A stretch of 8,542 nt of DNA, from contig JACQVL010000183.1 in NCBI GenBank assembly GCA_016209865.1, positions 1 to 8,542 on the forward strand. The letters run 5' to 3'. Made by a program: the position numbers and the translations under genes. How positions within the stretch are numbered: position 1 is the stretch's first letter; every line of letters begins with the position of its first letter. Shown piece by piece: positions 1 to 8,352 of the stretch. The DNA comes from Candidatus Latescibacterota bacterium. GTDB taxonomy: Bacteria; JAAXHH01; JACQVL01. Below the pieces are notes generated by a model. That model was not told where the DNA came from. It saw only the letters and a program-made list of their open reading frames with translations, and did no database searches.

Positions 1-1843
1 CCTCGGATTCACGCCAGGTCCCGTCGTTCGTCTGGACGAGGTACGTCTGGAAGTTCGGAGTGACCGTGTCGAGGAGGACGGTGACGGTGTGCGGTTCGGA
101 GCCTTGCTGGACGGAGATGTGCGTCTGGTTGAGCGACCAGGTGAAGTCGCCGTCCCGCCGGGAGGTCATCGAGAACTGCGGCAGGGGCATCGCGCTCGAT
201 TCGTACCAGACGTGGCCGTCGTAGGTGTAAGAGACCGCCCCGTGTTCCGGCTCTTCCGGGTAGAGGGACGTGAGGAAGTTGTTGCGAAGGGTGGTGCAGA
301 ACTGCCGGTACAGGGCCGCGTTCTCGCGCACCGAGTTCCCGAACTGCTCCGGGTCGTTCACCTCGGCCACCCCGTCGAAATCGTCGTGCACGAACGCCTT
401 GTGCAGGTCGAGGGCGCTCATCGGCACACCGTGCCGCTCGAAGTGGCGCGTCCCCTTCCGGCCGTCGTCGAAGTCACAGCCCGGGTCGATCATCACCCAC
501 TTGCGGTGCTCGTTCGACCAGACTTCCGCCACGCAGTGCGAGGTGATGATGCACACCCGCGCCTGCAGGCCGAGCGACAGGCAGGCCTGGACGAACGTGC
601 TGGCGTAATGTGTGCACATCCCTAAGGAGAGTTGCTGGCTGGCCAGTTCGAGGACGACTAACGCGTCCCAGGGTGGGACGAACTGGAGCGTCCCCCGGTT
701 CCAGCCATCTTCCCACTGCTGCCGGGTCCATCGCTTCAGGCGGAGGAATTTCTCGAACTCTGTCTTCGCCCCGGCGACGACGTGGTCGAGCCGCCATCGC
801 TCCCGGAGGATGGTGAGCCGTGGCTCATCCGTTAGCTGGTAGGCGAACGGATAGCTCCCCGGGACGAGGTCGTCGTTGTGGGCCTCGACCACCCGGAGGG
901 AGGGATGCGCCGGCTTCGTCATCTCCCCGCTGATCTCCACCTCCAGTTGGCGCAGCGCCGGCGTCGCGTCTCCGCGAGCGGTCGTCAGTGTGGCGCGCCA
1001 CTGGACGAACCGGTGGCTCTTGGGCAGGCTGACCGGGCCGGTGATGTCCTGCCAGGGGCTCCACGTCTCAGGCCCGTAGGAGGGGGTTGTTCCGCTCCGC
1101 CACTGCAGGCTGATGGCCGTCCCGCGCGGGACCGTCGCATCCGGGGTGAAGCAGACGCTCTTGACCGCGATCCGGGGCGCGATCGGGCCGTCCCCGGCGG
1201 TGGCCGCCAGGTCGATGGGCGAGGAGGTGATCGTTCCGGACGGCGCATGTCGGTGGAGGTTGAGGCGGACGACGTATTCTCCGATGCAAAAATCGTTCCG
1301 GCCGAGCCGCTCCGTCGTCCACGTCTTCCCTCCGTCGATCGATTTCGCGCTCCGATGATGATGGCGAGTGTTGTCCACGTACAGTCGCCAGCCTTTCCCG
1401 CTCCCGCTCCGGATGACGATGTCGTTCGCGCCCGCCTTGAGGGCTTTGGCGGGGATGGGGACGATCTGCCAGCCGGCCGACCAGTACGAGTCGGGCTTGC
1501 CCTGGAACGACACATTCTCCCGCTGATACTCGTGCTCGATCGTCTGTCCGTTGATCTCGACGATCAACGTCTGGTCGGTCGTCTCCGCGGCCGGGTCGTG
1601 CCCCTGCGGGTCGGTGCGAATGACCACCTCCGCCGCCTTCACGTCCGCAAACCCGAGGAGAAACGTTTTCTTCGCCCACACATGATCCGCGACGACGTCG
1701 TGCGTCCGGCTGGTGATCGCGCCGACATCATCGGCCACGAGCATCCGCGGCTTCAACCGGGCATGTTCGTCCACCACTTCGATGTGATGGTCATACGTGC
1801 ACCGGGTCAGGTCGGTGAAAGTCGTAAAGGTTCGTACCGGCAT
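1..1843 (-). CDS. Transglutaminase-like domain protein, 3' end cut by window edge
   Basis: An uninterrupted frame runs from ATG at 1843 to position 1 (614 codons seen, no stop). The start has a GAGGGGG Shine-Dalgarno a few bases upstream and an in-frame TGA just before it, so no earlier start is possible. The catalytic triad of the transglutaminase-like/papain-like fold is visible: Cys410 in LGMCTHYASTF, His436 in SHCVAEVW and Asp453 in WVMIDPG. Residues about 50-215 look like a beta-sandwich with one Asp-box (S168-I-D-G-G-K-T-W175). Residues about 225-305 look like a second beta domain. The part after 555 looks like a third, FnIII-like beta region (VTPNFQTYLV). There is no signal peptide or membrane segment at the N terminus. 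The fold covers peptidases, amidases and cross-linkers, so the substrate is unknown. It lies downstream of the peptidase-Rieske pair on the same strand, 177 bp away, so co-transcription is possible but not shown. Confidence 0.88.
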   Translation of the reverse strand, partial: MPVRTFTTFTDLTRCTYDHHIEVVDEHARLKPRMLVADDVGAITSRTHDVVADHVWAKKTFLLGFADVKAAEVVIRTDPQGHDPAAETTDQTLIVEINGQTIEHEYQRENVSFQGKPDSYWSAGWQIVPIPAKALKAGANDIVIRSGSGKGWRLYVDNTRHHHRSAKSIDGGKTWTTERLGRNDFCIGEYVVRLNLHRHAPSGTITSSPIDLAATAGDGPIAPRIAVKSVCFTPDATVPRGTAISLQWRSGTTPSYGPETWSPWQDITGPVSLPKSHRFVQWRATLTTARGDATPALRQLEVEISGEMTKPAHPSLRVVEAHNDDLVPGSYPFAYQLTDEPRLTILRERWRLDHVVAGAKTEFEKFLRLKRWTRQQWEDGWNRGTLQFVPPWDALVVLELASQQLSLGMCTHYASTFVQACLSLGLQARVCIITSHCVAEVWSNEHRKWVMIDPGCDFDDGRKGTRHFERHGVPMSALDLHKAFVHDDFDGVAEVNDPEQFGNSVRENAALYRQFCTTLRNNFLTSLYPEEPEHGAVSYTYDGHVWYESSAMPLPQFSMTSRRDGDFTWSLNQTHISVQQGSEPHTVTVLLDTVTPNFQTYLVQTNDGTWRESE

Positions 1844-1915
1844 GGGACCCCCTCATAAGAGCAGTGACGAGTGACGAGTGACAAGTAAAACATAATCCAC
1901 TCGCGTCTTACGGCT

Positions 1916-1940
1916 GTCATTCCCACGCAAGCGGGAATCC
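1916..1940. repeat. GTCATTCCC...GGGAATCC dispersed palindromic repeat
   Basis: The core is a 6-bp stem, attccc (1919-1924) with gggaat (1933-1938), around an 8-base loop. The wider GTCATTCCC...GGGAATCC consensus is a familiar small intergenic palindrome in many bacterial genomes, including proteobacteria and Nitrospirae. Its function is not known. It may fold in RNA transcribed from either strand. Confidence 0.65.
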
Positions 1941-1957
1941 ATTTCACCTTAGTTAGA

Positions 1958-1982
1958 ATGACACTATTGAGTCATATTTTTT
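1958..1982 (+). terminator. Weak hairpin followed by a T run (possible terminator)
   Basis: atgac (1958-1962) pairs with gtcat (1971-1975) around an 8-base loop, and the T-rich tract 1976-1982 follows. The shape is that of a weak intrinsic terminator on the plus strand, but no plus-strand gene ends nearby. It could block antisense transcription or be an accident of the repeat. The stem is short, so confidence is low. Confidence 0.25.
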
Positions 1983-2020
1983 CCTCTCGTCACTTGTCAC
2001 TCGTCACTGATTGTTACCGA

Positions 2021-2335
2021 CTACCGACCACCGATTCTCACATACACATCAGTTCCTTCCACCGTGACGTCGTACCGTTCGATGCACACCTGGCCGGAGA
2101 AATCGGACACGCCCGTCTCGACGTTGAACCGCCACCCGTGCCACGGGCAGGTGACCATCTTCCCCTCCAGCCATCCCTGACCCAGCGACGCGCCCATGTG
2201 GAGGCAGGTGTCCGAGATGGCGTAGTACGTGCCGTCGGCGTTAAAGATGGCGATGTACCGGCCGTCAGCCTCGACGGTCACGCCTTCGCCGGGCGGGATG
2301 TCGTACGCTTTGGCGACTTTGATGAAGCGCCCCAT
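2021..2335 (-). CDS. Rieske [2Fe-2S] ferredoxin-like protein
   Basis: This 104-residue protein is a complete single Rieske domain. The two cluster-binding motifs are C44-L-H46 and C63-P-W-H66, in the spacing usual for soluble Rieske ferredoxins and the small NirD-type subunits. Known relatives carry single electrons to ring-hydroxylating oxygenases or reductases. It has no signal peptide or membrane anchor, so a cytoplasmic electron carrier is expected. Its ATG lies 3 bases after the stop of the M3 peptidase gene (TAG-AAT-ATG). No clear Shine-Dalgarno of its own is visible, so translation is probably coupled to the peptidase. No oxygenase or reductase partner is encoded in the window, and the true redox partner is unknown. 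Confidence 0.9.
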   Translation of the reverse strand: MGRFIKVAKAYDIPPGEGVTVEADGRYIAIFNADGTYYAISDTCLHMGASLGQGWLEGKMVTCPWHGWRFNVETGVSDFSGQVCIERYDVTVEGTDVYVRIGGR

Positions 2336-2338
2336 ATT

Positions 2339-3823
2339 CTATATCGGTAGTCGTTCCGCCAGTTCCTGAATCAATGGTTCCGTCGTCAAGCCCGTGTCGC
2401 CGAGCTGTGCGGCCAGTTCCCAGACGGTATACTGCTGGCCGGACGACCAGAGGTCCCGCAGGAACGCGCCCGCCCCCGGAGCCGCAAACCATCGAGGCCC
2501 GTACCGCGCTCGGAGGGCGTGACGGAGCTGCGCCTGGAAAAGCCAGGCCTGCAGGTATTCCGCGCAGTAAAACCCCTCATCCAGGTCGGTCAGGTACATC
2601 TGGGGCGGGATGTTGACGTGAATCGCCTCGGACAGATGCCGCGCGTACCGGTCGTCCTGGCCATCCAGCCGGTCGGACGAGTGCAGGCCGAGTTCATACA
2701 GCAGTTTCGCGCAGTACCGTCGCACCATGAACAGTTCCTCTAAGTGGGTGAACCAGACGAATTCGTCCTGTTTCGGCATGGGCACGTGCTCCTCCAGCCA
2801 GAGCGGGTCGAGGAACAGATGGTCGAACAGGAAGGCGAACGACTCGGTGACCGAGTTATCCCCTAAGTACGCGTATTCAAACGGGCTGGATGGAGAGACG
2901 AAGCTGAAGTGGAGGGCGTGGCCGCCCTCGTGGAAGAGCGCGCGGTAGTCGTCGCACCCGTTCTGGGGCATGATGACGAGCATGATCCGATCCGGGATGT
3001 GGAGGGGGACGCAGAACGCGCGGGGGGATTTGCGCGCCCGCGCCTCGACGTCGAGCCGGATCGCCTGGCGCTCGTCGAGGTCGATGCCCAACTGGGCGAG
3101 CGCGTCCCGGAAGACGCCCAGCAGCCGGTCGGCCGTAAACGCCTCGTCGAACGAAGGCGCGCGGAGCATCCGCCGGATGTCGAACGGTTCCAGTTGGTCG
3201 AGCCGCAGGCCGAGGTACCGGTCGGCGGCCCGGCCGAGATGGGCGACGTACCGGTCTTCCGTCTCGGCCAGAAACTGCCGTGCCCGTTCAGCCAGGCCGT
3301 AGAGGTCGAGGCCTTTGCCCTTCATGCACAGGTCGGTGTAATGCTGGTAGCCGAGTTCGACGGCCAGGCGGTGGGACAACCCCACGGATTCGGCCCGGAG
3401 CGGGGTCAACCGCTCGACCACCTCAAGCTGCGCCTGATGGATTCGCCGCTGCCGCTCCCGGTCGGGTTCGTTGGCGATTGCGATCGTCGCGTGCCGGTAA
3501 CTGATCGTTTGGTCGTCGACCTGGATCGTGGCGTGGGCTTCTTCCGTGGCGATCCGGTCGTCGAAGTGTTTCGTCGCCTGGCCCAGATAGCTGCTCAGGA
3601 GGAACGCTTTCAGGTACTGGTAGCGCCGGGGGTCGGGGGCGCTCTCCTGGGCGAGAACCTGGTCGAGCGTCTGGATCGCCTGGCGCGAGGTCAGGCCGGG
3701 GTAGCGGTCGTAGATGGAGGAGAGGTTGAGGTCGGGTTTGAGGCCGGCGTAGTGGAGGTAGATTTCTTCTTCAAGCGCTTCGAGCAAGGCCTGAGCGTCC
3801 GCTTGAATGTGCGACACGGTCAT
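2339..3823 (-). CDS. M3-family (oligoendopeptidase F/thimet-like) zinc metallopeptidase
   Basis: This 494-residue protein is largely helical and has the zinc site of M3 metallopeptidases: H298-E-G-G-H302, followed by the probable third ligand Glu327 (in NSVTESFAF), 25 residues after His302. The late motif GFYCAEYLQAW (about 417-427) fits the substrate-binding Tyr region of the family. Members cleave short peptides in the cytoplasm, and no signal peptide is present here. The ATG at 3823 is chosen because AGGAG lies 6 bases upstream. An in-frame ATG at 3883 would add 20 residues of unlikely composition and has no ribosome site. The length is a little below the usual 550-700 residues, but the core looks intact. 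It forms a tight pair with the downstream Rieske gene. Confidence 0.9.
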   Translation of the reverse strand: MTVSHIQADAQALLEALEEEIYLHYAGLKPDLNLSSIYDRYPGLTSRQAIQTLDQVLAQESAPDPRRYQYLKAFLLSSYLGQATKHFDDRIATEEAHATIQVDDQTISYRHATIAIANEPDRERQRRIHQAQLEVVERLTPLRAESVGLSHRLAVELGYQHYTDLCMKGKGLDLYGLAERARQFLAETEDRYVAHLGRAADRYLGLRLDQLEPFDIRRMLRAPSFDEAFTADRLLGVFRDALAQLGIDLDERQAIRLDVEARARKSPRAFCVPLHIPDRIMLVIMPQNGCDDYRALFHEGGHALHFSFVSPSSPFEYAYLGDNSVTESFAFLFDHLFLDPLWLEEHVPMPKQDEFVWFTHLEELFMVRRYCAKLLYELGLHSSDRLDGQDDRYARHLSEAIHVNIPPQMYLTDLDEGFYCAEYLQAWLFQAQLRHALRARYGPRWFAAPGAGAFLRDLWSSGQQYTVWELAAQLGDTGLTTEPLIQELAERLPI

Positions 3824-3829
3824 GGAGGG

Positions 3830-3834
3830 CTCCT
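3830..3834 (-). promoter_or_regulatory. Ribosome binding site that fixes the M3 peptidase start
   Basis: Reading the minus strand, AGGAG is followed by six bases and then ATG at 3823. This is the best-spaced Shine-Dalgarno in the area and favours 3823 over the upstream in-frame ATG at 3883. Confidence 0.75.
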
Positions 3835-3974
3835 GATGTCGGAGTGGACGTGCAGGATGGAAAGACGGATTGAGCGAACGCATCAGACCTCATTCCCCGC
3901 TCCGTTTTCCATCCTCCCAAAATGGGGGACGGCGATGAGAAAGGCAAGAGAAATTTGTTTTATCGGATAATCTA

Positions 3975-4004
3975 TTGACATCTTCTCTCTTCCGAGCATT
4001 TTAT
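3975..4004 (+). promoter_or_regulatory. Sigma70-type promoter for the signalling operon
   Basis: A perfect -35 TTGACA (3975-3980) is followed after 18 bases by TTTTAT (3999-4004), four matches to the -10 consensus. An alternative -10, TATATA (4002-4007), has a longer spacer. Transcription would begin near 4011, about 15 bases before the ATG at 4026. The TTG of the -35 is also an in-frame TTG codon, which argues against using it as a start. Confidence 0.5.
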
Positions 4005-4025
4005 ATAGGGTCATCCGGAGAGGTC

Positions 4026-6629
4026 ATGGGGAATGCCGGGTGGCTTAATCCGCAATCCGCAATGGGTATTAGTCGCCATCTTCCTCCACATCTCGTAACG
4101 GGTCCCGGCATGCAGACCTCAGGCGCATCCCCGGCTCATCGGCCGGTCTCGTTCCGGCACACGATCACCTGCCAGGCGCTCGTCCTCGGCCTGCTGCTGA
4201 TCGCGGGCCGCTGGGTGGTCTCCACCGTCTCTTGGCGGGGCACGCCAACGCTGCACGTCTCCCTGGAATTCATCGCTGGACTCCTCGCGCTGGTCATCGC
4301 CCTGGGCGGCATCGTGCGGTACGTGGCGTTCAAACAGCGGCTCGTCCTGCTGTTCGGCCTGAGTTTCATGGGCGCGAGTATCGTCGACCTGCTCCATGCG
4401 GAGATGTCCCTCCGGGCGCTGGCGGTGAGTGAAGGCCCGGACCCGGTGACATGGACGGCGGGCCGGGTGACGCTCAGCCTGTTCCTCATCGCCGGCCTGC
4501 TGGTCGACCGGTACGCCCCGCACGCTCGCCGGGTCCGCACCGAACTCCTCACGGCAGTGACGGTGACGGTCGGGGTGACCTGGATTCTCGTCCTCCTGCT
4601 CAACTGGTACATCCAGCGAAGGGCAACCATCTTCGCCAATATGCCCTCGCTCGGCTGGGTCTCCGAATGGGGACTCGTCCCGGTCTTCTTAGGGATCGCG
4701 TGGGGATACTGGCGGGCGTTCGTCCGGCAGCGGTCGTCGTACCTCGACTGGGCGTCCGCCTCCGCCGTCATCTTCTGCATCACCCAGGTGTATTCCGCGA
4801 CCAACGTGACCGTGCACCAGTTCACCTTCGTTGCCAGTCATTTTCTGAAGGATTTCGGGTACCTGATCGCCCTGATCGGGCTGTACGTGGAGAGTCTGGC
4901 GCTGTTTCGTGATCTTGAGCAGCAGCAGGGGGCGTTGCGGCAGGCCGAAGAGAAATACCGGTCGATCTTCGAGAACGCGGTCGAGGGCATCTTCCAGAGC
5001 ACCCCTGACGGGCGCTTCCTCACGGCCAACCCCGCCATGGCGCGGATGTTAGGCTACGACTCGCCCGAAGAATTCATCACCACGATCACCGACGCCGAGC
5101 GCCAACTGCACGTCAGGCCGGAGCTCCGGCAGGAGTTCAAACGGTTGATAGAGGAACAGAAGGTCGTTCACGAGTTCGAGTTCAACCTCTACCGCAAGGA
5201 CCGGAGCACGATGTGGGCGTCCCTGCACGCCCGCGCCGTCCGTGATGAGCAAGGGATGATCCGCTACTACGAGGGCACGGCTGAAGACGTCACCGAGCAC
5301 AAGCGGGCGGCGGAGCGACTGCAGGAGGCGTACCAGCACATCAACGACCAGAACCAGGACCTGGAGCGGTCGAATCGCAGACTGGCCACCCTGCTCGACG
5401 TCAGCCGGATGATGGCCACGGTCCACAGCCTGGACGCGTTGCTCCAGAGCATCTTAGTGAAGGCGACCGAACTCATCCCCCTGGCGAGGGCTGGTGTCCT
5501 GATGCTGTACGATCCCGTGATCGACCGACTGGTGCCTCACGCGACGATCGGGTACCAACTCGGCATCCTCAGCGACCTGCGCCTTCGCCCCGGGGAGTCG
5601 TTTCCCGGCCGCGTGTTCGCCACCGGCCAGCCGTACATGAGCCAGTCGCCGGAGGAGCTGGCTTCCACGATGGATGAGCTGAACGACGAGCAACGACGGC
5701 TGGTGGGACAGGCGGCCGCTGGCCTGCCGCCGAGCCTGGGCATGATGTGCGCCCCGCTCGTCGTGCAGGGAAAACCGATCGGAGTGATGATGGTGAACAA
5801 CTATGCGTCCACCTCGCCGTTCACCGCCGACCATCTCGCCTTCTTCCAGGCGCTCTGCAGCCAGGTCGCGACAGCTATCCGCAACGTGCAGTTGTACGAT
5901 GAGGTGCAGGAGTACGCCGGCCAGCTCGACCAGAAGAACGAGGAACTGGAGAGCTTTGTCTACACCGTTTCCCACGATCTCCGGTCTCCCCTTGTTTCCC
6001 TGCACGGGCTGATGGGGATGTTCGTCAAGGCGGCCGGGTCGGCCCTCGACGAGCGCGGGCGCCGGTACCTCGCCCGCCTGGAAGCGAACGTCAGCCAGAT
6101 GGAGGAACTGATCGACGGCCTGCTGGAACTCTCCCGCGTCGGCCGGATGGCCGTCCAGATGGAAGACCTGGACATGAACCGGCTCGTCGGCGGTGTTATC
6201 GAGCAGCTCCGGCCCCAGTTCGACGCGACAGGGATCGCCGTCACCGTCCATCCTCTGCCGCGCCTGTCCGCGTCGGCGCTGCAGATGAAGCAGGTGTTCA
6301 GCAACCTGATCGGGAACGCGATCAAGTTCATGGGCGATGCCCCGGACCGGCGGATCGAGGTCGGGGGGGAACTCCTCAACGGGGCCGCCCAGTTCTACGT
6401 GAAGGATACCGGAATCGGGATCGACCCGGCGTACCATGAGAAGATTTTTGCGATCTTCCAGCGCCTGCAGGAACTGGAGGGCGTCACAGGCACCGGCGTC
6501 GGTCTGGCGATCGTCAAGAAGATCATCGACAACGCGCACGGGACGATCGCGGTCGAGTCCGAGAGAGGCAAGGGCGCGACGTTCCGGTTTACGGTGCCGA
6601 GTGGAAAAGAGGCGGGAGGAGCTGTATGA
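4026..6629 (+). CDS. Membrane sensor histidine kinase (MASE3-like, PAS, GAF, HisKA, HATPase)
   Basis: From the N terminus this 867-residue protein has about eight hydrophobic segments (roughly 40-300), including a MASE3-like stretch with VDLLHAEM. A PAS/PAC domain follows (309-425, starting EKYRSIF), then a short coiled coil, a GAF domain (469-625) and a HisKA domain with phosphoacceptor His650 in VSHDLRSPL. The ATPase domain has N-box Asn760/Asn764, G1 box D794-T-G-I-G and G2 box G822-T-G-V-G-L. All catalytic motifs are intact, so autophosphorylation at His650 is expected. The H-box and C-terminal part resemble kinases of the phytochrome/Cph1 type that work with Rcp1-like regulators, but there is no chromophore-binding domain. 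The start at 4026 has GGAG 5 bases upstream. ATG 4110 is an alternative, because codons 4026-4109 are unlike the rest of the gene. The stop overlaps the next gene by 4 bases. Confidence 0.9.
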   Translation: MGNAGWLNPQSAMGISRHLPPHLVTGPGMQTSGASPAHRPVSFRHTITCQALVLGLLLIAGRWVVSTVSWRGTPTLHVSLEFIAGLLALVIALGGIVRYVAFKQRLVLLFGLSFMGASIVDLLHAEMSLRALAVSEGPDPVTWTAGRVTLSLFLIAGLLVDRYAPHARRVRTELLTAVTVTVGVTWILVLLLNWYIQRRATIFANMPSLGWVSEWGLVPVFLGIAWGYWRAFVRQRSSYLDWASASAVIFCITQVYSATNVTVHQFTFVASHFLKDFGYLIALIGLYVESLALFRDLEQQQGALRQAEEKYRSIFENAVEGIFQSTPDGRFLTANPAMARMLGYDSPEEFITTITDAERQLHVRPELRQEFKRLIEEQKVVHEFEFNLYRKDRSTMWASLHARAVRDEQGMIRYYEGTAEDVTEHKRAAERLQEAYQHINDQNQDLERSNRRLATLLDVSRMMATVHSLDALLQSILVKATELIPLARAGVLMLYDPVIDRLVPHATIGYQLGILSDLRLRPGESFPGRVFATGQPYMSQSPEELASTMDELNDEQRRLVGQAAAGLPPSLGMMCAPLVVQGKPIGVMMVNNYASTSPFTADHLAFFQALCSQVATAIRNVQLYDEVQEYAGQLDQKNEELESFVYTVSHDLRSPLVSLHGLMGMFVKAAGSALDERGRRYLARLEANVSQMEELIDGLLELSRVGRMAVQMEDLDMNRLVGGVIEQLRPQFDATGIAVTVHPLPRLSASALQMKQVFSNLIGNAIKFMGDAPDRRIEVGGELLNGAAQFYVKDTGIGIDPAYHEKIFAIFQRLQELEGVTGTGVGLAIVKKIIDNAHGTIAVESERGKGATFRFTVPSGKEAGGAV
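4047..4063. repeat. Short tandem repeat AATCCGC x2 near the kinase start
   Basis: The heptamer aatccgc occurs twice head to tail (4047-4053 and 4054-4060), followed by aat. It falls inside the first codons if translation starts at 4026. Short tandem heptamers also occur in the intergenic repeat at 1863-2010. This raises the possibility that this segment is leader rather than coding sequence. Confidence 0.5.
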
Positions 6630-7069
6630 ACCACGAACCGTTTCACATCCTGCTCGTCGAGGATAACGAAGATCATGCGGAGATCACGATGGTGACGCTC
6701 GAGGAGAATCACGTCGCCAACCAGGTTGTCTGGGTGAAAGACGGGGCCGAGGCGCTCGACTACCTGTTCCGCCGGGGGATGTACGCCGACCCGGTCCGGC
6801 ATCCGGCTCCGGGACTCATCCTGCTCGACCTCAAGCTGCCCAAAGTGGACGGCCTGGAGGTGCTCAAGGAGATCAAGACTGAGCCAGCCCTCCGGCGGAT
6901 TCCGGTGGTCATGCTGACGACCTCCAGCCGGGAGGAAGAGATCCTCCGGAGCTACGACCTGGGGGTCAACAGTTACGTGACCAAGCCCGTCCGGTTCACC
7001 GAACTCTCCGAAAAACTCCGGCATATCTGTGATTTCTGGATGCTCACCAACACCCCACCGCCGCGCTGA
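6626..7069 (+). CDS. Single-domain response regulator, Rcp1/CheY-like
   Basis: This 147-residue protein is one receiver domain with all key residues: acidic pair E12/D13, phosphoacceptor D68 (LILLDLKLP), switch T98 and K120. The extended alpha-loop with LFRRGMYADP and the C-terminal FWMLTNTPPPR tail match the Rcp1 family, known as partners of cyanobacterial and bacterial phytochrome-type kinases. There is no output domain, so it presumably passes phosphate on or binds a target protein. ATG 6626 overlaps the kinase stop (ATGA) and is preceded by GGAGGAG, so co-translation with the kinase is strongly indicated. The neighbouring kinase is its obvious phosphodonor. Confidence 0.93.
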   Translation: MNHEPFHILLVEDNEDHAEITMVTLEENHVANQVVWVKDGAEALDYLFRRGMYADPVRHPAPGLILLDLKLPKVDGLEVLKEIKTEPALRRIPVVMLTTSSREEEILRSYDLGVNSYVTKPVRFTELSEKLRHICDFWMLTNTPPPR

Positions 7070-7087: not shown

Positions 7088-7948
7088 GTGGACGACCAAC
7101 CCATTCTCATCCTCTTAGTGGACGACAACGAAGACCAGGCGCTCATCGCCACGGATGCGCTCTCGGAAGACCCCCAGATCATCGTGACCGTAGCGCGTTC
7201 CGGTCATGAGTGCCTGTCACGGCTCCGCGATGCCGCCTACGACCTGGTCATCCTGGATTACAGCATGCCCCGCATGACCGGGATGGACGTCTTGCGGCAG
7301 ATGCGGACAGACGGCCTCACCGTGCCGGTCATCATGGTTACCGGGTACGGGGATGAGAAGGTGGCGGTGGAGGCGATGCAACTGGGCGCGTCCGATTACC
7401 TCATCAAGTCGGGCCACTACCACGACCTCTTGCCGGCGATCGTGCATCGGACGATTGACACGCAACAGCATCGCCGGGAGTTAGAGGAGCAGCGCACCCG
7501 CAACATCCGGCTGTCCGCCATCTTAGAGACGGCGGTGACGGTCAACCACGAGATCAACAACCCGCTCGTCACGGTCGTCGGGTACGCGGAGATGTTAGCG
7601 CAGCAGGCCAAGGAGAAGGATGCCTTCCTGTACGACGGTCTCATCCGCATCTTAGATGCGAGCCGCCGGATCGAGGGGGTGGCGCGCCGGCTGGGCCAGG
7701 TGATCAATCCGGCGACGAAGCCGTACATCGGGGATGTCCGGATGCTCGACCTGGATGCGGCGATCACGCAGAACGACCACGCTGCCGACGAGGCGACGGA
7801 TTATGCAACCCTCTACGCCCAGATGGTCGAGCTCAACCGGCTGCTCGAACGGCGTGTCGCCGAACAGGAGCAGGAACTGGCCGCGCTCCGGGGATCACAG
7901 ATGACACAGATGAAGAAGGAGGATGGCGCGGATACACAAACAGGATGA
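7088..7948 (+). CDS. Receiver domain fused to a HisKA-like helical domain, no ATPase domain
   Basis: The protein has 286 residues. Residues 1-125 form a receiver domain: D12/D13, phosphoacceptor D57 (LVILDYSMP), T85 and K107. A helical linker leads to a HisKA-type H-box, H154-E-I-N-N-P (about 142-205), of the HEINNP kind found in NtrB-like kinases. No N-, G1- or G2-box follows. The protein ends with a heptad-rich coiled coil (about 243-270) and a polar tail. It therefore cannot bind ATP as a normal kinase does. It may be a phosphotransfer module using D57 and H154, or a dimeric adaptor. The GTG start has GGGAG 7 bases upstream and lies 18 bp after the Rcp1-like gene, so it belongs to the same operon. 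Kinase-less REC-HisKA proteins occur elsewhere, so this is probably a real architecture and not a truncation. Confidence 0.88.
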   Translation: MDDQPILILLVDDNEDQALIATDALSEDPQIIVTVARSGHECLSRLRDAAYDLVILDYSMPRMTGMDVLRQMRTDGLTVPVIMVTGYGDEKVAVEAMQLGASDYLIKSGHYHDLLPAIVHRTIDTQQHRRELEEQRTRNIRLSAILETAVTVNHEINNPLVTVVGYAEMLAQQAKEKDAFLYDGLIRILDASRRIEGVARRLGQVINPATKPYIGDVRMLDLDAAITQNDHAADEATDYATLYAQMVELNRLLERRVAEQEQELAALRGSQMTQMKKEDGADTQTG

Positions 7949-7973
7949 CGCGTTTGCGGCTAATCCGTCATCC
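7943..7973. terminator. Inverted repeat spanning two convergent stop codons
   Basis: ggatgacg (7943-7950) is the exact inverse of cgtcatcc (7966-7973), with a 15-base loop. The TGA of the REC-HisKA gene lies in the left arm, and the TAG of the Rad52-like gene lies in the loop. The hairpin forms equally in transcripts from both strands, as expected of a shared bidirectional terminator, but no T run follows on either strand. Its function is inferred from position. Confidence 0.4.
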
Positions 7974-8352
7974 ACAGATGCAGGCCCACCCCGAATTGTT
8001 TCGCGCAAAGTTTGATCGCATCCCCGACCGCCGCTTTATACGCGTTCACCACGGCTTCCTCCCCGGTCCCGATCACCGCGCCCCCGAAGGCCGTCTTCGT
8101 GACCCCGCAGACGGTCATCACGCCGAGCACCAGGATTTCATGCTCGACTCGCAGATGCTCCTGCACGGTGAACGTCCACTCAAACCCGAAGAGCGTGTTG
8201 AGCCGGTCGATGACCGTGGCCGTCTCGACATAATCAAACTGTATCGTGTGCCACTGGCCGGTTTTTTTGTCCTTCCACCGCTGGGTGCGGTGTTTGATGG
8301 CCGAGGCCGGGAACGGCTGCGCCAGGGCCTGCTGAGTCTTGAAGCTGAACAT
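7960..8352 (-). CDS. Rad52/Rad22-family single-strand annealing protein
   Basis: This 130-residue protein carries the signature pattern of the Rad52 core: TATVIDRLNTLFGFEWTFTV (45-64), a beta strand VLGVMTVCG (75-83), and the helix-loop AYKAAVGDAIKLCAKQFGVG (104-123). The last matches the family's A-x-x-D-A-x-K-x-x-x-x-x-F-G motif. Members bind single-stranded DNA, form rings and anneal complementary strands in recombination; bacterial relatives include phage annealing proteins and DdrA of Deinococcus. The protein is shorter than the usual core of about 170-200 residues and ends just after the FGVGLHLW motif, so it is a minimal version. The start at 8352 has AGAGGA 8 bases upstream. It is convergent with the signalling operon, with 11 bp between stop codons, and has no other repair or phage gene beside it in the window. 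Confidence 0.8.
   Translation of the reverse strand: MFSFKTQQALAQPFPASAIKHRTQRWKDKKTGQWHTIQFDYVETATVIDRLNTLFGFEWTFTVQEHLRVEHEILVLGVMTVCGVTKTAFGGAVIGTGEEAVVNAYKAAVGDAIKLCAKQFGVGLHLWMTD

Follow-up and report, generated by a model that had tools for sequence, protein, structure and literature searches.

What can a receiver protein do that carries the intact H-box of a histidine kinase and no ATPase domain, and is it more than the remnant of a kinase? The question is raised by the gene at positions 7088–7948 (plus strand, GTG start, 286 residues) of contig JACQVL010000183.1 from a Candidatus Latescibacterota bacterium, whose 8,542 nucleotides were analyzed over their full length and are referred to as the window. 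The gene has a stable, conserved architecture in which the missing catalytic domain is a family trait, and its product fills the output slot, headed by a receiver domain (REC), of a three-gene cassette of the type HK / Rcp1-like / REC-X. The protein is a member of a large family and not an isolated oddity, in correction of the initial annotation of the sequence.

As described in that annotation, the protein combines an intact REC with an intact H-box, and D57, T85, K107 and H154-E155 are found at the residue numbers assigned to them. The REC comprises residues 8–117 (7109–7438; Pfam Response_reg, 4.3e-27; acidic residues D12/D13, D57 encoded at 7256–7258) and the HisKA/DHp core residues 151–196 (7538–7675; Pfam HisKA, 5.5e-5) with the H-box H154-E155-I-N-N158-P (H154 codon at 7547–7549). 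The HisKA score of 23.6 bits lies slightly under the Pfam gathering score of 26.9. No HATPase match was obtained for the protein with Pfam, in agreement with the annotated absence of N, G1 and G2 boxes, and an NCBIfam search returned generic REC matches only, with scores far under the cut-offs. In the AlphaFold2 model (mean predicted local distance difference test, pLDDT, of 89.8) the REC is followed by a single helix of residues 111–174 (7418–7609), which comprises REC alpha5, the signaling helix and DHp alpha1, by the second DHp helix (179–203), a beta-hairpin and a last long helix of residues 222–280 (7751–7927), corresponding to the C-terminal coiled coil proposed before. The two hairpin strands (210–214 and 217–220) coincide with a feature that had been overlooked, a conserved tail after the DHp with the motif YIGDVRMLDL (residues 213–222, 7724–7753). 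By its domains the protein is neither a classic nor a hybrid histidine kinase, which are defined by an HATPase_c domain with N, G1 and G2 boxes; it shows the three characteristics of the REC-HisKA subtype of HisKA-no-HATPase proteins, namely a HisKA with its His, no HATPase and an N-terminal REC with its Asp.

The distribution of this architecture was analyzed in a sample of 384 diverse genomes with profiles built first from three DHp-plus-tail segments and then from 24 (profile A2). At E ≤ 1e-17 the DHp-plus-tail profile revealed the family in about 60 of the 384 genomes, i.e. about one in six; a few matches at this threshold do not reach the tail and belong to ordinary kinases. The tail consensus reads Y-x-G/D-x-x-M-[IL]-D-[LI], and as family members we counted proteins with Y-x(2-8)-M-[IL]-D-[LI] directly after DHp alpha2 and the chain end at or near this point. 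The window protein has this motif and aligns with the profile up to the final position (4.2e-29), a score that is partly circular because the protein was one of the profile seeds; independent members share the tail. The chain ends at most 64 residues past the tail in 105 of the 111 tail-spanning matches, and among these 105 the C-terminal extension of the window protein is the longest. Matches to the DHp body without the tail almost all carry 85–371 extra residues. After removal of redundancy 90 tail proteins were obtained, which contain HisKA (89/90), REC (44/90) and in many cases PAS or GAF, while HATPase is not among their 25 commonest families.

The architectures of the family include REC-DHp, sensor-DHp and REC-DHp-REC. 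Exactly one REC-DHp-tail protein each was present in 16 of the 24 genomes of the G219 group, nearly all of them open frames of 221–244 residues. A REC-GAF-HisKA paralog in the host's own genome (contig C316; L079:5901–7178, minus strand) ends a few residues past YLADVPIPMIDL, and a REC-GAF-GAF-HisKA relative in genome G013 (L080), which adjoins a CheW-like gene, ends after YVSDIPIQMIDL; YIGDVRMLDL of the window protein occupies the position matching both. REC-DHp-tail-REC proteins of 360–373 residues, again with no ATPase, were identified in three genomes (L240:1093–2211, minus strand; L246:1429–2547, plus strand; L241:1489–2568, plus strand).

With respect to a possible loss of the ATPase domain by this particular copy, all six frames of the window were scanned for HATPase. 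The domain of the upstream kinase was the only match, and no remnant was found in frame downstream of 7088–7948. A remnant that was shifted out of frame is likewise absent, because HATPase occurs only in the upstream kinase and because a Rad52/Rad22-family recombination protein gene (7960–8352, minus strand) lies tail to tail with the operon, 12 bp past the stop codon. When a tree was built from the DHp body with the tail excluded, 3 changes of the ATPase-less label were required, compared to 16.9 for shuffled labels; this tree has few columns, is weakly supported and contains no more than 18 rows with an ATPase. The rows nearest to the window protein were ATPase-less proteins of its own order. 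The initial annotation had named homologs with a full ATPase domain after the same H-box as grounds for giving up its reading; such REC-DHp-CA homologs do exist at greater distance, and the nearest DHp relatives are without the domain as well. A truncated kinase was thus considered and rejected, as the missing remnant, the split in length after the tail and the DHp-body tree speak against it.

Contig L010 of a Latescibacterota metagenome-assembled genome (same sequence as G001) shows the same succession of genes as the window, namely transglutaminase, Rieske protein, kinase, Rcp1-like and REC. Between the REC of the window and that of L010, 66 of 99 residues are identical despite saturated synonymous sites, which indicates that the gene is under purifying selection. 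The third gene of this contig reaches 105 residues, inside the REC, before the contig ends, and the remainder was located on no other G001 contig; a full-length close ortholog with the H-box was looked for and not found. As a separate observation, the kinase of this relative (L010:2108–4260) ends with ...SGTIVC, and the final residues seem to continue in a different frame, which is probably a sequencing or assembly error, or else a real frameshift.

The operon was confirmed as annotated. A complete sensor kinase with the domains MASE3-PAS-GAF-HisKA-HATPase (3975–6629, Pfam) overlaps by 4 bp with an Rcp1-like single receiver (6626–7069; Rcp1 1i3c, 2e-29; RcpA 1k68, 2.5e-33), which is followed after 18 bp by 7088–7948, all three genes running in plus direction. 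Strong relatives of the Rcp1-like protein occur in 85 of the 384 genomes, and the 28 best Rcp1-like loci outside the order of the window were considered for the cassette count. A kinase gene directly precedes the Rcp1-like gene in 26 of the 28 loci, and in 23 the latter is directly followed by a REC-headed gene of the same strand. Most often this third gene encodes REC-(PAS)-DHp-CA; other types are REC-GGDEF (L260, L266), REC-PAS-HD-GYP (L267), REC-GGDEF-EAL (L283) and REC-PAS-ANTAR (L277). Because the third gene elsewhere encodes a REC-headed output protein, slot 3 belongs to an output protein under receiver control, and the view that the window contains no output protein has to be abandoned: 7088–7948 holds this slot. 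The window agrees with the HK / Rcp1-like / REC-HK (or REC-GGDEF, REC-HD-GYP) cassettes in gene order, strand and the first two genes, but its third gene has neither an ATPase nor a known output enzyme; an ATPase-less DHp occupies the slot in the window and, as far as readable, in L010. The annotation had further proposed a search for conserved neighboring genes. The cassette with the Rcp1-like gene does recur, whereas conserved kinase neighbors were not found across the ATPase-less family, most members of which are two-component orphans.

The top sequence match in the PDB was LvrB (8vc9; 1.3e-16, residues 46–202), a Rec-controlled histidine kinase of Leptospira. Both proteins have an N-terminal REC whose alpha5 runs into a signaling helix and the DHp, for the window protein the predicted helix 111–174. 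In LvrB the REC acts allosterically through this same continuous helix, and phosphorylation liberates the CA domain (PMC13269768). LvrB has a complete CA domain and the window protein has none, so that it is not a single-chain REC-DHp-CA protein. Since profile A2, which covers DHp and tail, aligns to HK853 up to the final profile position, the tail is probably the counterpart of the segment through which complete kinases continue into their CA domain. Foldseek and VIA-align searches were dominated by the REC domain and therefore gave little information on the DHp-tail part.

Which chemistry the protein may perform was approached via the H-box residues. In four tested HisKA kinases, His phosphorylation requires E(+1), which is dispensable for phosphatase activity, and for N/T(+4) the reverse holds (PMC3510030). 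The window protein possesses H154, E155 and N158, so that either chemistry is feasible. In the 90 non-redundant members, H is found in 88, E(+1) in 81 and N/T(+4) in 62, with Q(+4) in 26; H is kept with +4 lost in 28 members and the reverse applies to 2. An alignment of 24 REC-DHp members showed D13, D57, K107, H154 and P159 to be invariant. Hence the lack of conservation of H154, which according to the initial annotation would have spoken against its reading, is not observed. The retention of H and E above that of N/T(+4) leans towards phosphoryl transfer on His. A route from receiver to His to receiver is plausible for the REC-DHp-REC proteins, and the order of domains in the REC-DHp-tail-REC proteins seems to point to receivers as partners.

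Taken on sequence and on analogy, the best reading, which we put forward tentatively, is a REC-gated, ATPase-less DHp which would exchange phosphoryl groups with receivers in a His-dependent manner through H154, i.e. with Spo0B-like chemistry. The upstream kinase would phosphorylate the Rcp1-like protein and probably D57 as well. As in LvrB, the state of the REC would then reach the four-helix DHp dimer along the continuous helix, and the DHp would, without use of ATP, exchange phosphoryl groups with receivers like Spo0B or ChpT: H154 would take the group from a phospho-receiver and subsequently pass it on or discharge it, the partner being either the Rcp1-like protein of the adjacent gene or a receiver encoded at another site of the genome. 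The likeness to Spo0B and ChpT, in which a kinase-derived DHp dimer is used without ATP, concerns the proposed function and not a sequence comparison. Spo0B and ChpT keep a degenerate CA-like second domain and have no REC, whereas the window protein has, according to the model, only a hairpin and one helix after the DHp. From the initial reading, the architecture, the conserved His and the absence of the ATPase by design are retained and the missing output is not. Its internal transfer from D57 to H154 is a putative step; the REC of LvrB, a REC-DHp-CA protein, works by allostery.

Several observations weigh against His-dependent exchange. The residue counts refer to sequences and not to independent events, the Q(+4) subgroup may be a single clade, and the profile itself favors sequences with H and E; moreover, Q(+4) could still serve a phosphatase. 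A few His-less members (R or D), one of them in the window's own order, keep N/T(+4), and one of the REC-DHp-tail-REC proteins (L241) has its His replaced (VNDQINTPL) with T(+4) kept. Most family members elsewhere do not lie beside two-component genes, and for the sole syntenic ortholog (G001/L010) the contig ends before H154 is reached. In L031:976–1818 and L189:778–2319, R or D stands in place of the H-box His, and N/T(+4) is retained.

The main rival explanation is a dedicated response-regulator phosphatase, in which the REC-gated DHp would dephosphorylate the Rcp1-like or another regulator via N158 without ATP. We regard it as rather unlikely. HisKA-no-HATPase proteins have been suggested to act as phosphatases (PMC5847659), N158 is present, the few His-less members mentioned above retain N/T(+4), and phosphatase activity is known from the isolated DHp of NtrB or EnvZ (PMC3510030); these are HisKA cores without CA as well, but laboratory fragments of complete kinases and not natural proteins. 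Yet +4 is the least conserved catalytic residue, being Q or S in 28 of 90 members, N375Q is dead in CrdS, and E(+1), which is dispensable for a phosphatase, is kept in 90% of the family.

Phosphorylation of H154 in trans, by the ATPase domain of the neighboring kinase in a heteromer as in cross-phosphorylating pairs, would fit the complete kinase in the same operon and the retained H and E, as a kinase substrate would need them. It is improbable, as a kinase gene is not near most family members and as the operon kinase differs in its DHp and its H-box type (HDLRSP). Quite improbable, too, is a dimerization or docking scaffold, in which REC phosphorylation would alter the coiled coil and the C-terminal helix and the His chemistry would be incidental. 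The long helical rod with its additional C-terminal helix in the model fits this idea, and dimerization and protein interaction were suggested for REC-HisKA proteins by Galperin and colleagues (PMC5847659), but an H-E-x-N-x-P box kept in about 90% of the members across diverse genomes would be unexpected for a scaffold. Finally, a recently truncated or decaying REC-histidine kinase that has lost its ATPase domain, as the usual REC-DHp-CA form of cassette gene 3 might suggest, is highly improbable and already largely refuted by six frames without an HATPase remnant, the retained tail, the ATPase-less nearest relatives of the same order and the purifying selection on the REC.

Regarding the surroundings, the remaining part of the window (2–3883, minus strand) contains divergent genes for transglutaminase-like, Rieske ferredoxin-like and M3-peptidase-like proteins, the first two of which adjoin the cassette in L010 too. 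Within the family, some members adjoin PilZ, UDP-glucose dehydrogenase or beta-propeller genes. A short protein with two transmembrane segments ending in the DHp-tail was found in two genera of one order (L043:167–865 and L058:1396–2022), next to genes that were named by eye as adenine phosphoribosyltransferase-like and acylphosphatase-like. In two genera a REC-REC-DHp-tail gene overlaps a UDP-glucose/GDP-mannose dehydrogenase gene (L072:4514–7005 and L073:4574–7092), for which a link to the envelope or polysaccharides is possible. In a plasmid search with a REC-DHp protein, ordinary response regulators swamped the output.

The kind of protein is already known. An archaeal census (PMC5847659) describes HisKA-no-HATPase proteins and proposes that they act as phosphatases. 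It also covers REC-(PAS/GAF)-HisKA response regulators such as A. fulgidus AF_1472, none of which had been studied according to its authors. P2CS lists incomplete kinases ("possible incomplete histidine kinase") and HisKA-only phosphotransfer proteins (PMC2716373); beyond these two sources, nothing was found in the literature on DHp-only proteins and on the cassette. These nonenzymatic HK-like or REC-(PAS)n-HisKA proteins resemble the window protein in their REC and/or sensor domains, in a HisKA with conserved His and in the missing HATPase. The archaeal proteins differ by a PAS/GAF between REC and HisKA, which are joined directly in the window protein, and the latter adds the hallmark tail, the C-terminal helix and the HK / Rcp1-like / REC-X cassette. 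New detail appears to lie in the tail as a hallmark, in the breadth of occurrence among bacteria, in the conservation of the single residues, in the REC-DHp-REC form and in the setting within the cassette. We give about even weight to the broader view that kinase-less DHp proteins with a hairpin tail constitute a class of their own, coherent, widespread and as yet without a name, in which a REC or sensor would gate an ATP-free His phosphotransfer or phosphatase core, and which in the window would replace the output enzyme of the cassette.

As a rule, HisKA-without-HATPase proteins are labeled kinases in annotations or set aside as incomplete, and the literature searched contained no REC-HisKA example with a characterized function. 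The tail hallmark, the strong conservation of the His, the REC-DHp-REC fusions and the three-gene cassette turn this vague class into one for which relay, phosphate stripping or scaffold can be tested, and the answer would alter the interpretation of two-component wiring for a considerable proportion of bacterial genomes.
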